Shown piece after piece: positions 3,393-48,647 of a stretch of 64,000 bases of DNA. Location of the stretch: contig NZ_JASISV010000001.1 of assembly GCF_030063305.1 (NCBI RefSeq), positions 186,001 to 250,000 on the forward strand, given 5' to 3'. Positions within the stretch are counted from its first letter, which is position 1. Each line of letters begins with the position of its first letter. Under the pieces are notes generated by a model. It saw only the letters and a list, made by a program, of their open reading frames with translations. It was not told where the DNA came from and made no database searches. Position numbers and translations under genes: made by a program. Origin of the DNA: Salinibacterium sp. G-O1 (GTDB taxonomy: Bacteria; Actinomycetota; Actinomycetes; Actinomycetales; Microbacteriaceae).

Positions 3393-5912
3393 TCAGGCGC
3401 TGCGGGAGTCCTCGTCGAGCAGGCCAAGCTCGGCAGCGACGAGTAGCGCCTCAGTGCGAGTGGAGACGTTGAGTTTGCGATAGATGCTGCGCAGCTGGGC
3501 TTTGACCGTATTGCTGGCGACGAACAGCTTGCGCGCGACCTGCTCGATGGTCGCACCGGGATCGAGGGCGCGCAGCACCACGAGTTCACGCTCGCTGAGT
3601 GCGCCTGCAAGCGTCTGGTAGGGCGCCAGATAGCTGGTTCCCCTCAGTTCGTGGCGAGCGATGAAGGCCCCCGCATCAGGATGCAGTTCCGCGAGAGAGC
3701 GCAGCGTCTCGAGCGGCAGCAGGTGGAACGGCACGATCACACCCGACTTGTTCGACTGGTTGATGGCACGCAGCAGAGAAGCCGCTGCGTCCTCCTTGCG
3801 GTCAAGTGCGTGTTCGGATGCCGCACGCAGGACGGCGAGATCGAGCTGGCCGTGGCGCTCGGTGCGCCCGCGACCCTGGCCCTCGAGTATGAACAGGAGG
3901 GCGTGCTTCGGGTTGCCCGCGAGAAGTGCGAGCCTCGCTCGGCACACCGAGATCCAGGTGTTGCGAACCGGGCTCTGGTCGAGTGCTGCCTCGGCCCTCG
4001 GCAGCTGGCCGAGAAGCAGAGCGAGGTCTGCAGCGTCGCTCGTGAGCAGCACCTGCGCCGTCGAGCCAGCGACAAGCTGGTCGCTGTGCTCGGCCCAGGC
4101 GCGATCAAGATTGGAATCGGTCTCGACGGGGTCGCCCCAGTACAGCCCGTAACGGTTGCCGGCGTGCACCGCGAACGCCCAGAACTCGTCGTTGTCGCGC
4201 ATGTCGGCGAGCTGTGCCAGCCAGTGGCGCGCACCCTTCGGGTCAAGCCGGCTGATGGCGACCAGCGCATTGGCGACGAGGCCTGCGCTGCCGGCGTTGT
4301 CATCATCATCGAGCGAGCGCAGAAGGTTGGAGGCCTGCTCCACCTCGCCTTCGAGGGCACGAGTCAGGGCGAATGCCTCCAGGGCCCGCGCGGACGACTG
4401 GCGGATCGCGTCGTCGAGCCCGTACGCCAGGTCGAAACTGCGCTGGAAGCTGTCGCGCGCACCCGCGAGATCGAGGCCGAGCAGCCGCGACATCCCGCTC
4501 TGGTAGTGCGCCTCGGCCAGCACAAGAGGCGGCCGATCGATCATGTCATCGCCAGCCAGCAACTCATCGAGCTCTTCGGCGGCCTCGAGCGCGCCGGTGT
4601 GGTCACTCTTCAGCCGATACACCAACGACTTTGCGAGATAGGTAATCAGCCGGTCCCATGACCGCATCACGTCGGGCATCCGGGTGAGCGTGGCCGGAGT
4701 TCTGCGGCTGAGCGAGAGATACGGGCGGGCCAGGGCGTCGCCATGGTTCCATTCGCACTCAATGTAGAGGCTCAACCGCGGATGTTCGTCGCGGACAGCT
4801 CGCGGGAGATCGAGGATGATGCGCTGCAGCGCCTGCTGATCCTCGGCGATGAACTTGACGAGCGAATCGTCGATGGCGCCTATCAGCGAGTCCCAGTCTT
4901 CTGCGAGCACGAAATGGGTGAGCGCCTCAAGCCCCTTGCCTGACGAGAGAAGACCGCGCGCGAGGGCGGAATGCAGCTCGGAAACGACGTCGGGGATGCG
5001 CGCACCCGCCTCGTCCAGCACCGCGCGGCGCAACGTCGGTTCCAGGTGGAAGCGGCCGTCGCGCAACAGCACCCGCGACTGTGCGAGTCGATCGAGGTCT
5101 CGGTCGTCGAAGGAACCCTGCGTCATGGCGGCGAGAGTCTTGTGGGTGAAAGTGCCAGCGATGGCGAGGGATGCGACCCGCTGCAGCTCGGCGGTCGACA
5201 TGGTCTGCGCCCTCAACTCGAGCACGTACGAGGTTTCTGCCCGCATGCGAATCGCGTAGGTTTCGGAGTCATCGCCAGCCTCGGCATCCGGTTCCATCAT
5301 GGCCAGAACCGCGGGCAGCACATCCGCCTGGGCGAGGGCCGTCTGGGCGAGCCCCGTCGCCGTGGACTCCGTCAGCAGGATGCCGGCCGCTGCCGCGGTC
5401 TCGCGAATCTCGTGAGGATTCAGCACGAGCGACGACGGTGCGGCCGTGACGGCACCGAACTCGATCCGCCCCCGTGCCATGAGAGCGCGCCGCGCGGAAC
5501 AGATCGCCACGATCGACAGGTGCGGGGATGAGGCGAGAAGGTCGAGGAGCCCGGTGTCGACAGACGACCGAACTGCCGAGGTCAGGCTGACGGCAAGCAG
5601 CAGCGGCCGCTCGAGGGCCCGGGTGACGTGTGCGACGGCGCCATAGGGGTCGCCGGTCATCGGAAGGCTGAAAGCGTCTGCGAGAGCGGCCCTGATCGTC
5701 TCCCACGGTTGTGCCTGGGGAGTCGGGAAGTCGATCCACACAACGTCCCGGTCGGAGGAGTCTGACACCAACGACGCAGCAAGGATCGCGCGCACGGGCA
5801 CGAGAGGAACATCGTGGATGATGTGGACGCGGCTCGATAGGGCGGCGCTGGCGAACGAGGTGGTGGCAACCGCGCCGAAACTGGGGATGCCGTGGCGGAT
5901 CGGGTGAGGCAT
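3393..5912 (-). CDS. Large LuxR-family transcriptional regulator (839 aa)
   Basis: The C-terminal ~65 residues form a clear LuxR/GerE helix-turn-helix (LSERELVVLRALDPGATIEQ then ASNTVKAQLRSIYRKLNV), preceded by a long alpha-helical region like the repeat arm of MalT/LAL regulators. Unlike MalT or LAL proteins, the N-terminal ~200 residues show no GxxxxGK(S/T) P-loop where the NTPase domain should be, so this is probably a non-ATP-binding relative. AAGGAG sits 5 bases before the ATG. It converges on the polysaccharide co-polymerase gene and diverges from the GNAT gene across 196 bases. A role in controlling the surface-polysaccharide locus is a guess from position. Confidence 0.8.
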   Translation of the reverse strand: MPHPIRHGIPSFGAVATTSFASAALSSRVHIIHDVPLVPVRAILAASLVSDSSDRDVVWIDFPTPQAQPWETIRAALADAFSLPMTGDPYGAVAHVTRALERPLLLAVSLTSAVRSSVDTGLLDLLASSPHLSIVAICSARRALMARGRIEFGAVTAAPSSLVLNPHEIRETAAAAGILLTESTATGLAQTALAQADVLPAVLAMMEPDAEAGDDSETYAIRMRAETSYVLELRAQTMSTAELQRVASLAIAGTFTHKTLAAMTQGSFDDRDLDRLAQSRVLLRDGRFHLEPTLRRAVLDEAGARIPDVVSELHSALARGLLSSGKGLEALTHFVLAEDWDSLIGAIDDSLVKFIAEDQQALQRIILDLPRAVRDEHPRLSLYIECEWNHGDALARPYLSLSRRTPATLTRMPDVMRSWDRLITYLAKSLVYRLKSDHTGALEAAEELDELLAGDDMIDRPPLVLAEAHYQSGMSRLLGLDLAGARDSFQRSFDLAYGLDDAIRQSSARALEAFALTRALEGEVEQASNLLRSLDDDDNAGSAGLVANALVAISRLDPKGARHWLAQLADMRDNDEFWAFAVHAGNRYGLYWGDPVETDSNLDRAWAEHSDQLVAGSTAQVLLTSDAADLALLLGQLPRAEAALDQSPVRNTWISVCRARLALLAGNPKHALLFILEGQGRGRTERHGQLDLAVLRAASEHALDRKEDAAASLLRAINQSNKSGVIVPFHLLPLETLRSLAELHPDAGAFIARHELRGTSYLAPYQTLAGALSERELVVLRALDPGATIEQVARKLFVASNTVKAQLRSIYRKLNVSTRTEALLVAAELGLLDEDSRSA

Positions 5913-7089: not shown

Positions 7090-7134
7090 CCAGAAGGTGG
7101 CCCGATGTCCAGAATCGCCACGTACGCTCGAAGT

Positions 7135-8070
7135 ATGAGCTGGAACCCCGCACACCCTCCTCGCCAGGATGGCCGCACCTTCGTCGTCACCGGCGGCAGC
7201 GCCGGCCTCGGATACTTCGCCGCCGAGCAGCTCGCGCGCGCGGGCGGCCACGTCGTGCTCGCCACACGCAGCCCCGAGCGGGCGGCGCGCGCTGAGGCAT
7301 CCATCCGCGGAAACGTGGCAGGGGCATCCGTCGACTCGCTCACTGTTGACCTCGCCTCGCTCGCGTCGGTGCGGGAGGCCGGGTCCAGGCTCGCCGACTA
7401 CGGCCGCATCGACGGACTCATCCTGAACGCGGGCGTCACCTCCGGCTCGAATGAGCGGCAGCACTCGGTCGACGGCTTCGAGCTCACCATGGCGACCAAC
7501 TTCATCGGCCACTTCGCGCTCACCGCCCTCGCCTGGCCCGCGCTCACCCGCACCGCCGGCAGCCGCGTCGTCGGCCTCGGAAGCCTGAGCACCTTCATGG
7601 TGCCGCCGCACCCCGGCGACATGCTCAGCCAGCGCAGCTACAACTTCTTCCGCGCGTACGCGTTCTCCAAGCACGCGATGCACGGCTTCATCCTTGAGCT
7701 CGATCGCCGCACCAATCAGTCGACCGTTTTCGGGAGGGTTCCGGATGTCGCGGCTCTGCTCGCGCATCCCGGCTACGCGATCGACGGGCTGACGCCGCTG
7801 CGCCCCGGCATCGCGGATCGAACCCCGCTCATGCGCGCCGCAGCCCTCGCCGCGTCGTTCGGAACTCAGGGCAAGAACCGCGGAGCGGCGCCCACCGTGC
7901 GGGCTGCCCTCGACCCGGCGCTCACGGGCGGCGAGTTCATCGGCCCGAAGTACCTGACGCACGGACGACCCGTGCTGGCGCATCCCGCCGGAACGAGCGC
8001 GTCGCCGGAGTTCGGCGGGCACATCTGGGCCCTCGCCGAGGAGTGGACCGGCCGCGACTTCGACGTGTAG
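7135..8070 (+). CDS. Short-chain dehydrogenase/reductase
   Basis: 311 residues. Rossmann motif TGGSAGLG close to the N terminus, NAG motif (LILNAGV), the YxxxK catalytic pair as YAFSK, and an upstream Ser in GSLS mark a classical/retinol-dehydrogenase-like SDR; the family oxidises or reduces alcohols and ketones with NAD(P). ATG 7135 is preferred because a TACGCT box ends 6 bases upstream; an in-frame ATG at 7105, with AGAAGGTGG before it, would add 10 residues. Start is therefore uncertain. Substrate cannot be named. Confidence 0.85.
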   Translation: MSWNPAHPPRQDGRTFVVTGGSAGLGYFAAEQLARAGGHVVLATRSPERAARAEASIRGNVAGASVDSLTVDLASLASVREAGSRLADYGRIDGLILNAGVTSGSNERQHSVDGFELTMATNFIGHFALTALAWPALTRTAGSRVVGLGSLSTFMVPPHPGDMLSQRSYNFFRAYAFSKHAMHGFILELDRRTNQSTVFGRVPDVAALLAHPGYAIDGLTPLRPGIADRTPLMRAAALAASFGTQGKNRGAAPTVRAALDPALTGGEFIGPKYLTHGRPVLAHPAGTSASPEFGGHIWALAEEWTGRDFDV

Positions 8071-8083
8071 CCGCCGCTCCCGT

Positions 8084-8118
8084 CCCGCTCCCGCTCCCGC
8101 TCCCGCTCCCGCTCCCCC
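8084..8118 (+). repeat. CCCGCT hexamer microsatellite
   Basis: About five to six tandem CCCGCT units followed by a run of eight C, in the gap after the SDR gene and just before palindrome P1. Such tracts are prone to slippage; nothing is encoded here. Confidence 0.8.
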
Positions 8119-8140
8119 CCCGTCCCGTCGTCCCCAAAAT

Positions 8141-8208
8141 CCCGCCGAGATTGCGCAAACTGCCGCTACGCCGGCAGCGATAGCGACAGTTTGCGCAAGG
8201 TCGGCGGG
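8141..8208. repeat. Palindrome P1 (66-68 bp), at the 3' end of the DUF559 gene
   Basis: Nested inverted repeat: outer arms CCCGCCGA/TCGGCGGG, then TTGCGCAAACTG matched by CAGTTTGCGCAA, and inner CGCTA/TAGCG around a GC-rich loop. It ends 3 bases from the stop codon of the DUF559 endonuclease gene. Aligned without gaps to P2 (9170-9235) it matches at 53 of 66 positions. The inner core recurs in P9 (48589). It could act as a terminator, but no T run follows and the pairwise likeness to P2 argues for a dispersed repeat element. Confidence 0.85.
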
Positions 8209-8211
8209 TGG

Positions 8212-9096
8212 TCATCCACCCTCGAGGGCTCGGTGGAGCTTCGCGAACAGGGTGGCCGGCCGGGCCAGGAGGAATTTGTCGACCCGGATGGCCCGCCATC
8301 CTTCCTCCATGATGTCGTCGAGCCGGTAGATGTCCCGAAAGTACTGGCGCTCCTCGCGATGGCCGCCACCGTCGTACTCGACCACGACCTTCTGAGCGCG
8401 GAACACGAGGTCACCGTGGGCGATTACCGCCCCGAAGTTGTTGCGGATCGGCCCGTTCACCTCCGGCTCGGGGAATCCGGCCCGCACGATGAGCAGCCGC
8501 AGGATGGTCTCCATGGCCGAGTCGGTGCGGCTGCGCATGAGCAGGACGGCCTCCCGCAGATTCACTACGCCGCGAGCGCCGCTCAGCGCCGCCACGAGAC
8601 TCTCGATCTCGCCCAGTGTTGCGATGGGGCTGTGCCGCTTCAGCAGCCCGTCGCCCATGACGATGAGCTCATCCAGGCTCAGGATGCCGGCGCACTGAGC
8701 CCACGCGTCGACCGGCCGCGCGACCCTGAGCCCGCCGACGATCGTGGGCACTAGCGCCGACTGGTGCCCGATCACCCCACGGCTTCGCGGCGCCGGATGG
8801 GGCGGGGCGGCCGACACGTGCAGCTGCAGTTCCACGAAATTGCGGGGCATCCTGAGCCCGTGGATGGCCGCCGCCGTCGTGTGCGTGAACAACTCGTGCC
8901 GTGGCATCCGTGCCGCATAGGCGTGGGCGAGCTGGTCGAGGGTGACCTGTGTGCCGGGCGCGCGCACGCCGTGAAACGGACGGCCGAGGTCCAGCGCGCG
9001 CAGGCGGCGATCGGTGAGCGCGAATTCGCGAGCCTCCGCCGTGGTGAAAGGGCGGTCGCGCAGGCCCGGCGGCAGCGGGGCGGGTTGCCGTGACAT
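8212..9096 (-). CDS. wHTH (AbiEi-like N terminus) - DUF559 / Vsr-like PD-(D/E)XK endonuclease
   Basis: 294 residues. The N-terminal ~120 residues resemble the winged-helix region of AbiEi-type antitoxin proteins (FTTAEAREFALTDRRLRAL, HELFTHTTAAAIHGL). The C-terminal ~105 residues are a DUF559/Vsr-like nuclease: E196 in SAMETILRLL, D229 in HGDLVF, E240-Y-D242-G then H246, and RDIYRLDDIMEEGWRAIRV. All expected acidic residues are present, so it should be active. In Vsr the fold nicks DNA at T:G mismatches; the role of this fusion is not established. CATACT lies 6 bases before the ATG. Palindromes P1 and P2 flank the gene on both sides, the same layout as REP-associated transposases, although this protein is no transposase. 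Confidence 0.8.
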   Translation of the reverse strand: MSRQPAPLPPGLRDRPFTTAEAREFALTDRRLRALDLGRPFHGVRAPGTQVTLDQLAHAYAARMPRHELFTHTTAAAIHGLRMPRNFVELQLHVSAAPPHPAPRSRGVIGHQSALVPTIVGGLRVARPVDAWAQCAGILSLDELIVMGDGLLKRHSPIATLGEIESLVAALSGARGVVNLREAVLLMRSRTDSAMETILRLLIVRAGFPEPEVNGPIRNNFGAVIAHGDLVFRAQKVVVEYDGGGHREERQYFRDIYRLDDIMEEGWRAIRVDKFLLARPATLFAKLHRALEGG

Positions 9097-9169
9097 CCGC
9101 AGAGTATGCCGTCACGGCGCCCCTCGCCGCCCAACTTCTCCCCAAGTGACTCTCCTCACCCCTCCCACC

Positions 9170-9235
9170 CCGCCGAGTTTGCGCAAACTGTCGCTACGGC
9201 GGTGGAAATAGCGGCGGAATGCGCAATCTCGGCGG
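9170..9235. repeat. Palindrome P2 (66 bp), 5' of the DUF559 gene
   Basis: Same length and register as P1: outer CCGCCGAG/CTCGGCGG, TGCGCA on both arms, inner GTCGCTACGGCGG facing AATAGCGGCGG. Pairing is less perfect than in P1. It lies 73 bases upstream of the DUF559 start codon and 71 bases upstream of the next gene on the plus strand, so it sits in a divergent promoter region where a terminator would make little sense. Confidence 0.8.
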
Positions 9236-9306
9236 AGTTAGACGCGTCGGGCGCGGCGGCGGCAGGCGGAGGCGCGGCGGCCGGCCGGCTGCGGCAGACT
9301 GGGGGG

Positions 9307-9807
9307 ATGGATGACGGCGGCCGGGGCCTGGGGGAACTGCTGCAGCGCACCGTCGCCGAGCTTGAGGCCCGCGGCATCCACGACGAGGCTCTCGGCACCG
9401 TGAAGGCGGGGCGGAGTTTCGGGCCGATCGGCACGTCGACGAAGATCCTGAGCGCCGGTCGCGCGTGGCGCCTGGGCGTACTGCTGATCGACCGGGATGC
9501 GCGGCTCTACGAGACCGGATCGGTCACCCGCGCGATCGTTCCGCTGCGCGCGGTCACGAACCGCTCACCCGAGGCGGAGTCCCGCCGTGACGACCGCCGG
9601 GCCGCCGCGCGTGGCAATTTCGCCGAGGGGGAGGTGGTGAACTTCGACTACAGCCCGATCGACCTCAGCGCCGAGGCGCTCGCCGATGGCCGCGGCATCC
9701 TGGGCCTGCAGGATGGGGCGATCATGGTGCGCTGGCACGCCACGGATCCGCCGCGCAGGCTCGACGCCTACCTCGCCGACAGGCTGAGCCTGCTGGACGA
9801 AAGCTAG
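9307..9807 (+). CDS. Conserved-looking hypothetical protein
   Basis: 166 residues, soluble, no signal or membrane segment. I do not recognise a domain. Visible traits: an N-terminal helix (LGELLQRTVAELEARGIHDE), a basic middle part around VTNRSPEAESRRDDRRAAAR, and a C-terminal alpha/beta part ending in LDAYLADRLSLLDES. ATG 9307 was chosen because CAGACT ends 6 bases before it; the longer open frame from 9106 runs through palindrome P2 and is not credible. It converges on purL with an 8-base gap. Codon use is like that of its neighbours, so it is probably real. Confidence 0.65.
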   Translation: MDDGGRGLGELLQRTVAELEARGIHDEALGTVKAGRSFGPIGTSTKILSAGRAWRLGVLLIDRDARLYETGSVTRAIVPLRAVTNRSPEAESRRDDRRAAARGNFAEGEVVNFDYSPIDLSAEALADGRGILGLQDGAIMVRWHATDPPRRLDAYLADRLSLLDES

Positions 9808-9815
9808 CGACCCGA

Positions 9816-12125
9816 CTACTGCCCGATGACCGCGCCGAACCGGTCCGACATGGTCGCCTGGTGCACGCCGCGAAGCTCGTCGAGCGAGATCGTGAACTCG
9901 TCCTGCACCTCAAGCACACCGCTATTCTCGGTGACGCCGATGCGCAGGAAGGGGTAGCCGCGGCCGTCGCACAGCCCCTGGAAGCGCACGTCATCTTCGC
10001 GCGGCACGCTCACGAGCATGCGAGCGGTGGATTCGCTGAACAGGGCTGCCGTGGCATCCACGCCGTCGCGTTCCATGATTTCGGAGATCCAGACGCGGGC
10101 GCCGATGCCGAAGCGCATGACCGCCTCCGCCAGGGCCTGGGCGAGACCGCCGTCGGCGAGGTCGTGGGCGGATGCCACGAGGCTCTGCTCCCCGCCGGCG
10201 CCGATCAGCGCCGCGAGCTTCATCTCGGCGCCGAGGTCGACGGTGGGCGGCATGCCGCCAAGGTGATCGTGCACCGTGCCGGCCCAGGCGGATCCGTCGA
10301 GCTCGTCACGGGTGATACCGAGCAGGTAGATGTTGTTGCCCTCGTCCTGCCAGCCGGACGGGATGCGGCGGGCGACGTCGTCGATGATTCCGAGCACGGC
10401 GATGACGGGGGTGGGGTGGATCGGCACGTCGCCGGTCTGGTTGTAGAACGACACGTTGCCGCCGGTGACCGGGATCTCGAGCTCGAGGCATCCGTCGGAA
10501 AGAGCTTCAACGGTCTTGGAGAACTGCCACATCACCTCGGGGTTTTCGGGGGAGCCGAAGTTGAGGCAGTCGCTGACGGCGACCGGCGTCGCACCGGTTG
10601 CCGCGACGTTACGGAAGGCCTCCGCGAGGGCGAGCTGCGCGCCGCGGTATGGGTCGAGCTGGCAGTAGCGGCCGTTGGCGTCGGTGGCGACGGCGAACCC
10701 GAGACCGGATTCCTCGTCGATGCGCACCATTCCGCCGTCGTCGGGGAAGCTGAGCGCGGTGTTTCCGAGCACGTACTTGTCGTACTGGTTGGTGATCCAG
10801 CTCTTGTCGCTGAGGTTGGCCGAGCCGAGCAGCGCGAGCACGTCGGCGCGCAGGTCGGTCGAGCGCGGCAGCGAGGCCGTGGTGTCGGCCTGCAGCGCGT
10901 CGATCCAACTGGGGTACGCCACCGGGCGGTCGTAGACAGGTCCGTCGACGGCCACGGTGCGCGGCTCGACGTTGACGATCTCTTCCCCGCGCCAGTTGAT
11001 AATGAGGCGCCCAGTGTCTGTCACCTCGCCGAGCACGGATGTCTCGACATCCCACTTCTTGACGACCGCGAGGAAGCCGTCGAGCTTCTCCGGGGTCACG
11101 ATCGCCATCATGCGCTCCTGGCTCTCCGACATCAGAATCTCTTCGGCGGTGAGGGTGGGGTCGCGCAGCAGCACCTGCTCGAGGTCGATGAACATGCCGC
11201 CGTCGCCGTTGGAGGCGAGCTCGCTGGTGGCGCACGAGATGCCGGCGGCGCCCAGATCCTGGATGCCCTCCACGAGCCCGAGGTTGAACAATTCGAGGCA
11301 GCACTCGATGAGCACCTTCTCGGCGAACGGGTCGCCGACCTGCACGGCCGGGCGCTTGGTGGGCCCGCCCTCGCTGAAGCTGTCGCTGGCGAGAATGGAT
11401 GCTCCGCCAATGCCATCACCGCCGGTGCGAGCCCCGAACAGCACCACCTTGTTGCCCACACCGCGCGCGTTCGCGAGGTGCAGGTCTTCGTGCCGCAGCA
11501 CGCCGACCGCGAGGGCGTTGACCAGCGGGTTGGCCTGGTACACGGAGTCAAAGTAGGTCTCGCCGCCGATGTTCGGCAGGCCGAGGCAGTTCGCGTAGAA
11601 CGAGATTCCCGAGACGACGCCGTGCACGATGCGCGCGGTATCGGCGTCATCGATGTGACCGAAGCGCAGGGCATCCATCACGGCAACCGGCCTGGCTCCC
11701 ATGGAGATGATGTCGCGGACGATGCCGCCGACACCCGTCGCTGCGCCCTGGAACGGCTCGATGAAGCTTGGGTGGTTGTGGCTTTCGATCTTGAAGGTGA
11801 CCGCCCAGCCCTCGCCGACATCCACGACGCCAGCGTTCTCGCCCATGCCGACCATGAGGTTCTTCTTCATCTTCGGGCTGACCTTCTGGCCGAACTGTCG
11901 AAGGTAGTTCTTGCTGCTCTTGTACGAGCAGTGCTCGCTCCACATCACCGAGTACATCGCGAGCTCGCCACTCGTGGGGCGACGACCGAGGATCTCGCGG
12001 ATCTTCAGGTACTCGTCCTCTTTGAGGCCGAGCGCCGCGTACGGCTGCTCCTTCTCGGGGGTCACTGCCGCGTTGGAGACGGTGTCTGGAACAGATGGGC
12101 TTGACATAGACGGCGAGGGGGTCAC
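9816..12125 (-). CDS. purL: Phosphoribosylformylglycinamidine synthase subunit PurL
   Basis: 769 residues, the usual size of the small PurL that works with PurS and PurQ in ATP-dependent conversion of FGAR to FGAM with ammonia from glutamine. Clear family segments: [57 protein letters not shown] and [11 protein letters not shown] at 12125 is supported by AGGAG 7 bases upstream. A TAGAAT -10 box at 12161-12166 is followed by CGTG exactly as in the purS promoter. purQ/purS, normally adjacent, are ~4.8 kb away behind a CPBP-like gene, VapBC, MscS and two membrane protein genes. Confidence 0.97.
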
Positions 12126-29485: not shown

Positions 29486-29878
29486 ATGCCTCCCAAACGG
29501 ATAGCCGACGCCGCCGGCCGTGCCGCGGTCGCCGCAGCACTGCTCGACGCGCCGACGCGGGATGCCACAGCCACCGCCGTCCGCTACCTTCTGCAGCTTC
29601 TCGCCGACAGCGCCGAGGGCAACACCGTCGAGATCAGGGTGCCGCCGTTCGGGGCCGTGCAGGCCATTCAGGGACCGCGGCACACCCGCGGGACTCCGCC
29701 CAACGTCGTAGAGATGGATGCCGCCACCTGGCTCGCCCTGGCCACCGGAGCGCTGGCGTGGGCAGATGCCGTACGTGCCGGCCGTGTTGCGGCATCCGGT
29801 CAAAGAGCCGACCTCACGGACTACCTGCCGATTGTGTGGCGCGAGATCTCCACTTCTGCTGGCCCCGAGCCGGTCTAG
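29486..29878 (+). CDS. Sterol-carrier family protein (bacterial SCP ortholog)
   Basis: 130 residues. [20 protein letters not shown] start, middle strand [22 protein letters not shown] and a C-terminal helix pattern match the small actinobacterial SCP-2-like family, possibly lipid-binding; function unproven. ATG 29486 follows a TACCGT box by 6 bases; ATG 29480 is the alternative. The last ~12 codons ([12 protein letters not shown]) and the stop lie inside palindrome P4, so the C terminus is shaped by that repeat. Confidence 0.8.
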
Positions 29879-29899
29879 GCAGCAGAAGTGGAGGTCTCG
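29842..29899. repeat. Palindrome P4 spanning the 3' end of the SCP gene
   Basis: Arms CGAGATCTCCACTTCTGCTG (29842-29861) and its complement at 29880-29899 match at 19 of 20 bases, with an 18-base loop that contains the TAG stop. No T run follows and the next gene starts only 37 bases further on. Could be a terminator, but the stem is long and half of it is coding. Confidence 0.85.
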
Positions 29900-36446: not shown

Positions 36447-36567
36447 CCCGCTGCGCTCGCCCCTCCCGTCGCGCCGCGCAACCCTGTCCCGCGCGCTCCC
36501 GTGTGGCCGCGCAACCGTGTGCCGCGCGCTCCCGTGTCGCCGCGGCATCCCTGTCCCCCCGCGGCAT

Positions 36568-36646
36568 CCAAATGAAGGAGATTTCTGGCTGAAGGCACGT
36601 TTTGCCAGCAAACTTCGCGGGTGGATGCCATATCTCCTTCATTTGG
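36568..36646. repeat. Palindrome P5 (79 bp, AAATGAAGGAGAT arms)
   Basis: Outer arms CCAAATGAAGGAGAT and ATCTCCTTCATTTGG are perfectly complementary over 15 bases. Inside, CTGGC faces GCCAG around GCACG. Identical outer arms occur in P6 and near-identical ones in P8 at 45816. Confidence 0.9.
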
Positions 36647-36728
36647 GAGTGGCAGGCGGGGCGCCGAGTCCCGCGCGCTCCCGTGTGGCTGCGCGACCGT
36701 GTGCCGCGCTCCCGTCGCGCCGCGGCAT

Positions 36729-36807
36729 CCAAATGAAGGAGATTTCTGGCTGAAGGCACGTTTTGCCAGCAAACTTCGCCCGCGGATGCCATATCTCCTT
36801 CATTTGG
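36729..36807. repeat. Palindrome P6 (79 bp), second copy of P5
   Basis: Same length as P5 and same sequence except for a few bases near the right inner part (GCCCGCGGATGCC in place of GCGGGTGGATGCC). Together with its upstream GC-rich flank it forms a tandem duplication of the P5 unit, offset 161 bases. Confidence 0.9.
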
Positions 36808-36854
36808 GAGCGAGGGAGCGAGGGAGCGAGGGAGCAAGGGAGCGAGGGAGCGAG
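36806..36854. repeat. GGGAGCGA octamer microsatellite
   Basis: About six tandem GGGAGCGA units with one GGGAGCAA variant, overlapping the right end of P6 and ending ~13 bases before the crcB stop codon. A likely slippage hotspot. Confidence 0.85.
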
Positions 36855-39813: not shown

Positions 39814-39902
39814 GAGGGATGACCCTACTCCTCGCCACGGGGCTGTCAACGCCTAGCGCGTGACCGTTATCTGCGGCACGTGCGCCAGCCCCTCCCTCCT
39901 TC

Positions 39903-39981
39903 GGAAATTCAGGAAATCCTGACGCTACGGACGAGCTTGCGCGCCCAGGGCAGGGTTCGGCAGCGGATCTCCTGAATTTCC
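39903..39981. repeat. Palindrome P7 overlapping the yczE-like stop
   Basis: Arms GGAAATTCAGGAAATCC (39903-39919) and GGATCTCCTGAATTTCC (39965-39981) pair at 16 of 17 bases. Just inside the left arm is TGACGCTACGG, close to the left core of P1/P2. The stop codon TAG of the YczE-like gene lies in that core, so ~19 C-terminal residues are repeat-encoded. Confidence 0.8.
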
Positions 39982-40608
39982 AACGGTTGGGGAGGTCGCC
40001 GGCGCGCGCCCGGCCGCGGTGTCTCCGCCCGGCACCCGCAGCAGGGGCAGTGCAACGTTGACCATCGGCCCGATCAGCAGCGCGAATGCGAGAGTGCCGA
40101 GCCCGACGGTGCCGCCGAGAGCCCAGCCGATCGCAAGAACCGTCACCTCGATCGAGGTGCGCACGGCCCAGATGGGCCAGCCGGTACGCCGATGGATGCC
40201 CGTCATGAGTCCGTCGCGAGGGCCGGGCCCGAACCGCGCCCCGATGTACAGGCCCGTGGCGATGGCCAGCAGGACCAGTCCGCCCGCGAGCAGCAGGATC
40301 TGGGCCACGAGTGAGTCTGGCTCCGGCAGCATCCACAGGCCGACCTCGATGGACGGGCCGATCAGCAGCACGTTGGCGACGGTGCCGACCCCGGGTTTCT
40401 GCCGGATGGGGATCCACAGCAGCAGCACCACAACTCCGATGGCGTTGGTCACGATCGCGAAGTTGAGGCCGGTGTGCAGCACGACCCCCTGGCTGAGCAC
40501 GTCCCAGGGCGAGGCGCCGAGCGCGCCTTCGAGCATCATCGCAATGGCGAAGCCGTAGAGGAACAGGCCGACGAGCAGTTGCGCGACGCGGCGGGACATG
40601 AGGAGCAT
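39925..40608 (-). CDS. YczE/YitT-type membrane protein
   Basis: 227 residues with five or six membrane helices: MSRRVAQLLVGLFLYGFAIA start, GASPWDVLSQGVVLHTG and GARFGPGPRDGLMTGIHRR motifs are typical of YczE, a membrane family tied in Bacillus to surfactin regulation, activity unknown. Start ATG 40608 (40599 also possible). Divergent from the MocR regulator, the classic yczR-yczE layout. Its C terminus after ~205 is encoded by palindrome P7 and looks unstructured (NSGDPLPNPALGAQARP). Confidence 0.82.
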   Translation of the reverse strand: MLLMSRRVAQLLVGLFLYGFAIAMMLEGALGASPWDVLSQGVVLHTGLNFAIVTNAIGVVVLLLWIPIRQKPGVGTVANVLLIGPSIEVGLWMLPEPDSLVAQILLLAGGLVLLAIATGLYIGARFGPGPRDGLMTGIHRRTGWPIWAVRTSIEVTVLAIGWALGGTVGLGTLAFALLIGPMVNVALPLLRVPGGDTAAGRAPATSPTVGNSGDPLPNPALGAQARP

Positions 40609-48588: not shown

Positions 48589-48647
48589 TCGAGAGTGCGG
48601 AGAGTGTCGTTATGGCTCCCCGATAGCGGCAACATTCGCACTCTCGA
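48589..48647. repeat. Palindrome P9 (59 bp), core shared with P1/P2
   Basis: Outer arms TCGAGAGTGCG/CGCACTCTCGA (perfect, 11 bases). Inner part TGTCGTTATGG, 6 bases, GATAGCGGCA fits the same core as P1 (TGCCGCTACGC, 7 bases, GATAGCGACA) although the outer arms are unrelated. Confidence 0.85.

Follow-up and report, generated by a model that had tools for sequence, protein, structure and literature searches.

Salinibacterium sp. G-O1 carries a nuclease gene enclosed by two matching palindromes, and many related genes across the class are enclosed in the same way, by pairs that agree within a locus, differ from gene to gene and, in the genomes checked, also occur dispersed as solo copies. We think that an unrelated enzyme, homing-endonuclease-like in type, runs a REP/RAYT-like system here, and that the unit found in the window (the whole stretch of 64,000 nucleotides analysed here) is the resident, gene-bearing member of a palindrome family of the REP kind, a reading to which we give a probability of about 0.6. 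Its core, a partnership of the REP/RAYT kind with an enzyme of a different fold, was put forward in the original prediction and is now strongly supported by the gene-specific pairs, the concentration of solo copies and the covariation of palindrome and protein.

The window unit and its enzyme

The two palindromes P1 and P2 (Table 1) are identical at 53 of 66 positions in their best ungapped 66-base alignment (8142 against 9170), which reproduces the match first reported, and they bound the gene as had been claimed, P1 lying 3 bases past its stop and P2 73 bases before its start. Folded as single-stranded DNA, P1 reaches -33.4 kcal/mol and P2 -25.0 kcal/mol, values that none of 200 shuffles equalled in either case; these shuffle folds, with the arm counts across genomes given below, rule out a chance hairpin as the origin of the pair. 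P1 stands at the top of the window's inverted-repeat list of 16 pairs, and P2, missing from that list, was recovered by a more tolerant scan.

Table 1. Features of the window, in window coordinates (G000 is the Salinibacterium sp. G-O1 genome, G026 a second genome compared with it)
Feature	Position	Strand	Description
Short-chain dehydrogenase gene	7105..8070	+	Flank used in the empty/filled comparison
P1, palindrome 3' (downstream) of the nuclease gene	8141..8208	.	A family; 28-nt arms, 25/28 complementary; z -9.6
Nuclease gene, 294 aa	8212..9096	-	Open frame; N-terminal part AbiEi/wHTH-like, nuclease part of Vsr/DUF559 (MTES_1575) type
P2, palindrome 5' (upstream) of the nuclease gene	9167..9238, core 9170-9235	.	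A family; 24/30 arm pairs; z -6.8
Hypothetical gene	9307..9807	+	Flank used in the empty/filled comparison; no Pfam or NCBIfam match
purL	9816..12125	-	NCBIfam PurL equivalog, 989 bits; also adjoins related elements in Cryobacterium and others
Solo C-family palindrome	29842..29899	.	Family's gene is G000:C4:93553-94422; corresponding G026 gap without palindrome
Solo palindrome, B family by eye	48589..48647	.	Family's gene is G000:C3:70805-71695

The window holds other repeats as well. A (CCCGCT)n short tandem repeat directly adjoins P1 at 8075-8130; two adjacent, similar inverted repeats with 49-nt loops (CCAAATGAAGGAGAT / ATCTCCTTCATTTGG) lie at 36555-36659 and 36712-36824 and represent another palindromic family; and inverted repeats with TTCGGAAATTCAGGAAATC arms, at 39889-39995 and again on contig C2 (L047:285-375), form a further dispersed family.

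That the nuclease is intact, as had been claimed, is borne out by its uninterrupted frame and by its conserved residues: E196, D229, E240 and H246 are invariant in 40 aligned relatives, and D255 and R258 are kept in at least 90% of them. The DUF559 label has to be qualified, since the protein has a Vsr/DUF559-like nuclease part but the window copy stays below the Pfam cut-off for DUF559 (PF04480; 16.7 bits against 20.6), a cut-off that its paralog on contig C4 passes. At E<=0.1, MTES_1575 (PF18741) matches 29 and DUF559 matches 28 of the 40 aligned members, and PADLOC models of AbiEi match up to 11. The AlphaFold model (pLDDT 95.5) gave nothing at E<=0.001 in Foldseek; the top three rows are Toxoplasma mitoribosomal chains (E 0.0019-0.029, rmsd over 15), and the fourth, on the nuclease domain, is I-Bth0305I (3r3p; a weak E of 0.13, probability 0.98, TM 0.67 by target length, rmsd 3.5). 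I-Bth0305I is a Vsr-like homing endonuclease, and the nuclease domain, as modelled, may resemble it.

Of 296 genomes sampled from the class, 205 gave profile matches to the family (E<=1e-15). With the window protein as query (E<=1e-5), 3 of 72,556 plasmid records and 1 of 50,697 phage records matched, so that the family seems to be chromosomal, although the plasmid and phage collections hold few records from such hosts. One may see in this scarcity a trace of self-marking or defence, in which the nuclease attacks DNA that lacks, or carries, the palindrome, whose copies serve as marks on the chromosome or keep the enzyme occupied; the portion of PMC3710099 covered here does describe the Vsr-type MTES_1575 nuclease domain in giant proteins with a proposed defence role. 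We consider this quite unlikely: no second convincing gene was seen between P1 and P2, where the other frames overlap the nuclease gene, and marking leaves unexplained both the matching pair around the gene and the differences between relatives.

Matched pairs across the class

We examined 47 congener loci, 80 named loci and two class-wide sets of 29 and 20 loci; the named set comprises Microbacteriaceae and other actinobacterial groups, which we take to be Micrococcaceae, Intrasporangiaceae, Cellulomonas and Ruania. For each locus the best pair was compared with the D (downstream) palindromes of random other loci, and a pair was counted as matched above the 99% level of this null; the test left out L056, L059, L063 and L057, and contig ends made 3 of 172 loci untestable. 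A matched pair was found at 107 of the 169 testable loci, related loci not being independent in these counts (congeners 30 of 42, named loci 47 of 78, class-wide sets 20 of 29 and 10 of 20). The original prediction had named orthologs regularly without palindromes as evidence against it, and the outcome is divided, the 107 loci speaking for it and the 62 without a matched pair against it; of these 62, some are visibly decayed and others are perhaps truly without.

Hairpins themselves are frequent beside the gene: in the named set, 54 of 76 loci have one with a score >=12 in the 260 bp upstream and 46 of 74 have one in the 260 bp downstream, compared with 2.8% of the 1091 control windows, which are mostly coding, and in the class-wide sets 19 of 29 and 6 of 20 loci have one with a score >=11 on both sides. 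Both palindromes score >=10 in 59 of 117 loci, from which partial or broken loci (L069, L095, L051, L080, L079, L096) and those on contigs shared with named loci (again L056, L059, L063 and L057) had been left out. The median similarity of the upstream (U) and downstream palindromes in these 59 is 0.60 when both come from one locus and 0.185 when they come from different loci (permutations: mean 0.20, sd 0.011), and the best match of a palindrome is its own partner in 52 of them. The idea that the palindromes are moved in trans by another enzyme, and that the nuclease gene came to lie between two copies by accident, is difficult to reconcile with this repeated enclosure of one gene family by differing palindromes.

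Agreement between the two ends can be followed at one chromosomal site. purL was found in 18 of the 80 named loci, 141-436 bp from the nuclease gene in 16, and in 13 of the 16 the gene lies behind purL in the same direction, an arrangement which the window shares apart from its intervening hypothetical gene. Seven of the 13 have both palindromes, with a median U-D similarity of 0.59 within a locus; between these loci the U-U median is 0.27 (maximum 0.61) and the U-D median 0.26 (maximum 0.77). A wider set of ten gives 0.59 within against 0.17, with one locus at 0.20. The ends agree while the loci differ, as homogenisation within each genome would have it, provided that the purL site was inherited from an ancestor rather than being a hot spot.

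The genome of the window contains further copies of the gene. The window protein has five matches in it, corresponding to four loci, one of them split over two frames; a profile search gave six matches, and the four loci from the window-protein query were those examined. The copy on contig C3 (L049 4306-5196) has palindromes at 4178-4238 and 5244-5304, that on C4 (L050 4554-5423) at 4486-4543 and 5482-5539, and the split copy (L051), a broken gene, has a decayed pair visible by eye, on which the scanner is silent and which falls under the matched-pair threshold. The four gene loci have four different pair sequences, three detected by the scanner and the fourth by eye. Palindromes cannot be taken as a trait of DUF559 genes in general: a canonical DUF559 gene of this genome (L036, C1:635955), missed by the window-protein query, has none, which is also unfavourable to an accidental enclosure, and of two weak DUF559 matches one (L039, E 0.13) lies near a C-family palindrome, whereas the other, L040, has no palindrome.

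The window protein shares 33 and 39% identity with the full-length paralogs, and therefore no recent whole-unit copy of the window unit exists in this genome. This bears on the second option of the original prediction, a selfish element in which palindrome, gene and palindrome move as one transposon. Such an element would account for the presence of the unit in G000 and G026 and for its absence from G002, whose neighbouring genes overlap with nothing between them; but the 16 named copies close to purL are where an ancestral place (or a hot spot) would put them, and the part that is dispersed is the solo palindrome. We found this option less well supported and regard it as highly improbable.

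The palindromes, different as their arms are, share an architecture. Among 107 palindromes with a score >=11, a GAG foot and its CTC partner could be measured in 57, and the span from GAG to CTC is 54-56 bp in 44 of these; by distance from the centre, the most conserved parts are the foot and an inner GC-rich block. Palindrome similarity follows protein identity (Mantel 0.22, above all 300 permutations), with partial correlations of 0.18 for residues 1-60, 0.21 for 61-120, 0.12 for 121-190 and 0.01 for the nuclease part, 191-294. From these comparisons palindrome specificity appears to track the N-terminal parts to a modest degree and the nuclease part not at all, and this covariation, which may come from shared ancestry, supports recognition by the N-terminal parts.

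In 57 named loci the median distance from the end of the upstream palindrome to the matched start is 86 bp (10th to 90th percentile 57-139), and between the two many copies have a motif CTGTGGA(TAA), which resembles a DnaA box; within 110 bp upstream of the gene, TGTGGA occurs in 44 of 78 named loci against 1.9 in shuffles. The window gene has no exact copy of CTGTGGA(TAA) between P2 and its start. A palindrome placed where a promoter would be, the AbiEi matches and a specificity that tracks the N-terminal parts would all suit a regulatory reading, in which the palindromes would serve an AbiEi-like protein as operators or terminators, both at its own gene and in a regulon. The dispersed copies would then be regulatory sites, and the nuclease would have a separate job. 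On this reading one would not expect a palindrome at either end of the gene, nor the near-identical loops of solo copies and the more than 100 arm matches per genome described below, and no T-run is visible beside P1 or P2; we hold it to be unlikely.

Solo palindromes and their dispersal

Solo palindromes outnumber the genes. A-family hairpins stand alone at C1:3-51, 147-210, 316031, 316148, 348406, 672727 and 889365 and at C2:1005337, and one further A-family arm lies at the end of contig C4. The copies at 316031, 316148, 348406 and 672727 have near-identical loops, which suggests recent copying among them. Since two contigs of this genome begin at A-family palindromes (C1, L041:3-51, and C4:17-33), these repeats probably break the assembly. 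In the C family the arms group into 16 clusters; 14 of these have both arms, two of the 14 lying at the gene.

The arms are concentrated in the genomes of their own genes. The A arm has 18 matches in G000, two of them in B-family copies (C1:930653 and 930820), and 2 in total in 26 congeners, one each in G018 and G023. The C arm has 30 matches in G000, 14 of them exact, and 0-9 in other genomes, all with at least two mismatches; four gene-negative genomes (G011-G014) have 5-9 matches at 2-3 mismatches, against 0-2 in their controls. An arm of another genome, G010, has 28 matches there, 8 exact, and 0-7 elsewhere, all with at least two mismatches and near the reversed-pattern controls. Exact matches of the C and G010 arms thus occur in the cognate genome only. 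An arm of genus g49 (family f26) has 4 to 125 matches per genome in 12 genomes and 0-3 in nearly all others; in other families, G086 has 10 and G238 33.

One genome, G160, has 114 arm matches and a gene relative that is only distant (best E 2.3e-25), possibly the outcome of gene loss after the palindrome had spread. This case, with the excess of solo copies over genes, is what mobilisation in trans would lead one to expect. A RAYT acting in trans was rejected as a candidate: the search for Y1 (HUH) transposases (PF01797) found none in the 27 congeners, the genome of the window included, and was positive in 5 of 14 control genomes. With the enclosure data, this makes mobilisation in trans by another enzyme very unlikely in our opinion.

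To look for clean insertion sites, we aligned two long stretches, 404 kb from G000 and 400 kb from G026, and scanned the 80 named loci for palindromic indels. Hairpins of 50-80 bp with a score >=12 number 12 in the G000 stretch, 6 in that of G026, 13 in 200 kb of the gene-rich G010 and 1 in 200 kb of G005, the sole gene-negative genome scanned, not every one of these hairpins belonging to the families described here. Of those in G026, a pair encloses its own gene and a third is similar to the palindrome of its second gene. Around three of the solo sites in G000 (the pair 316031/316148, 328435 and 215842) the alignment picks up again on both sides. The unaligned stretches measure 403, 555 and 51 bp in G000 and 104, 84 and 111 bp in G026, and no hairpin was found in these G026 gaps; at a further site (234589, window 48589) G026 may carry a decayed relative of the palindrome.

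The comparison of empty and filled sites proposed at the window's syntenic place was carried through in part: the unit is present in G000 and G026, with genes 66% identical and diverged palindromes, and is absent from G002, but neither a clean empty site nor a target duplication was found in the alignment or in the 80 named loci, the intergenic sequence being too diverged for a clean empty site to be read. The scan of the named loci gave 11 indels, one of them a candidate, the Cryobacterium loci L120/L124 against L135, a close case and yet no simple insertion. This Cryobacterium intergenic site carries palindromes of different families according to species (L108:5320-5680, L119:5355-5690, L120:5370-5580, L124:5360-5562) and none in L135. 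Two palindromes seen by eye in L099, at the window's junction, received no support from the scanner.

Proposed mechanism and comparison with known systems

In the REP/RAYT-like reading that we favour, the AbiEi/wHTH-like N-terminal part would recognise its own palindrome of about 55 bp, made of the GAG foot, a variable arm, a GC-rich inner stem and a loop, and the C-terminal Vsr/homing-endonuclease-like domain would cut DNA at the palindrome or at some target related to it; it would probably act on the extruded palindrome or at a replication fork. With another copy as template, repair would homogenise the palindromes of one genome and at times seed solo copies, so that gene and palindromes would evolve together. 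The sequence comparisons show association and dispersal; binding, cutting, mobilisation and spread by repair are what we infer from them. It is possible, and to us an evenly balanced question, that the Actinomycetia possess a class-wide, independently evolved mode of palindrome propagation by an AbiEi-wHTH plus homing-endonuclease-like nuclease in place of a transposase, one that would recognise and cut its own 55-bp palindrome and copy it about the chromosome, and would thereby "home" a non-coding palindrome and not the endonuclease gene.

In the open-access literature covered, RAYTs are the only dedicated enzyme tied to REP-type palindromes. Palindromes tied to DUF559/Vsr-like genes were not found in open-access titles and abstract openings, among the matches listed, and neither "RAYT" nor "nuclease" occurs in the part of PMC12306157 that was covered. 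Should a second enzyme, unrelated to RAYTs, prove to share their anatomy, this would mean convergent evolution of a palindrome-maintaining system; a nuclease family that is very widespread but uncharacterised would gain a function, and one kind of palindromic repeat in these genomes would be accounted for. The many natural pairs of enzyme and palindrome make the recognition code directly testable.

Several known systems resemble this one in part. The fold match at E 0.13 makes I-Bth0305I a possible relative of the nuclease domain, but here the domain follows an AbiEi-like N-terminal part and the gene has palindromes at its ends. Profile matches relate the protein to DUF559/REase_MTES_1575 and to AbiEi regulators; unlike the canonical DUF559 gene, the window gene is enclosed, and unlike AbiEi it has no toxin partner that could be seen between P1 and P2. 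According to the sections of Di Nocera 2013 covered here (PMC3733652), TIRYT genes likewise lie between repeats and can be a repeated family, and CGTC REPs are likewise palindromes without a dedicated transposase; TIRYTs, however, are tyrosine transposases and the CGTC repeats have another tag.

The closest parallel is REP/RAYT itself, for which the covered part of PMC2817692 reports the same order of palindrome, gene and palindrome, gene-specific palindromes that are also dispersed, and orthologous genes that keep their position while their palindromes change together. It differs in several ways: our nuclease has another fold, its palindromes of about 55-60 bp have a GAG foot on both sides, whereas REPs, in the covered part of PMC3733652, are 20-40 bp long and tagged GTAG/GTRG or CGTC at one end, and U and D are direct as often as inverted (22 direct, 23 inverted and 14 ties in the 59 loci), unlike the inverted order of RAYTs. 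The system of the window has the anatomy of REP/RAYT but is no member of it, because no Y1 transposase was found in the 27 congeners and the foot, the length and the orientation of the palindromes are its own.
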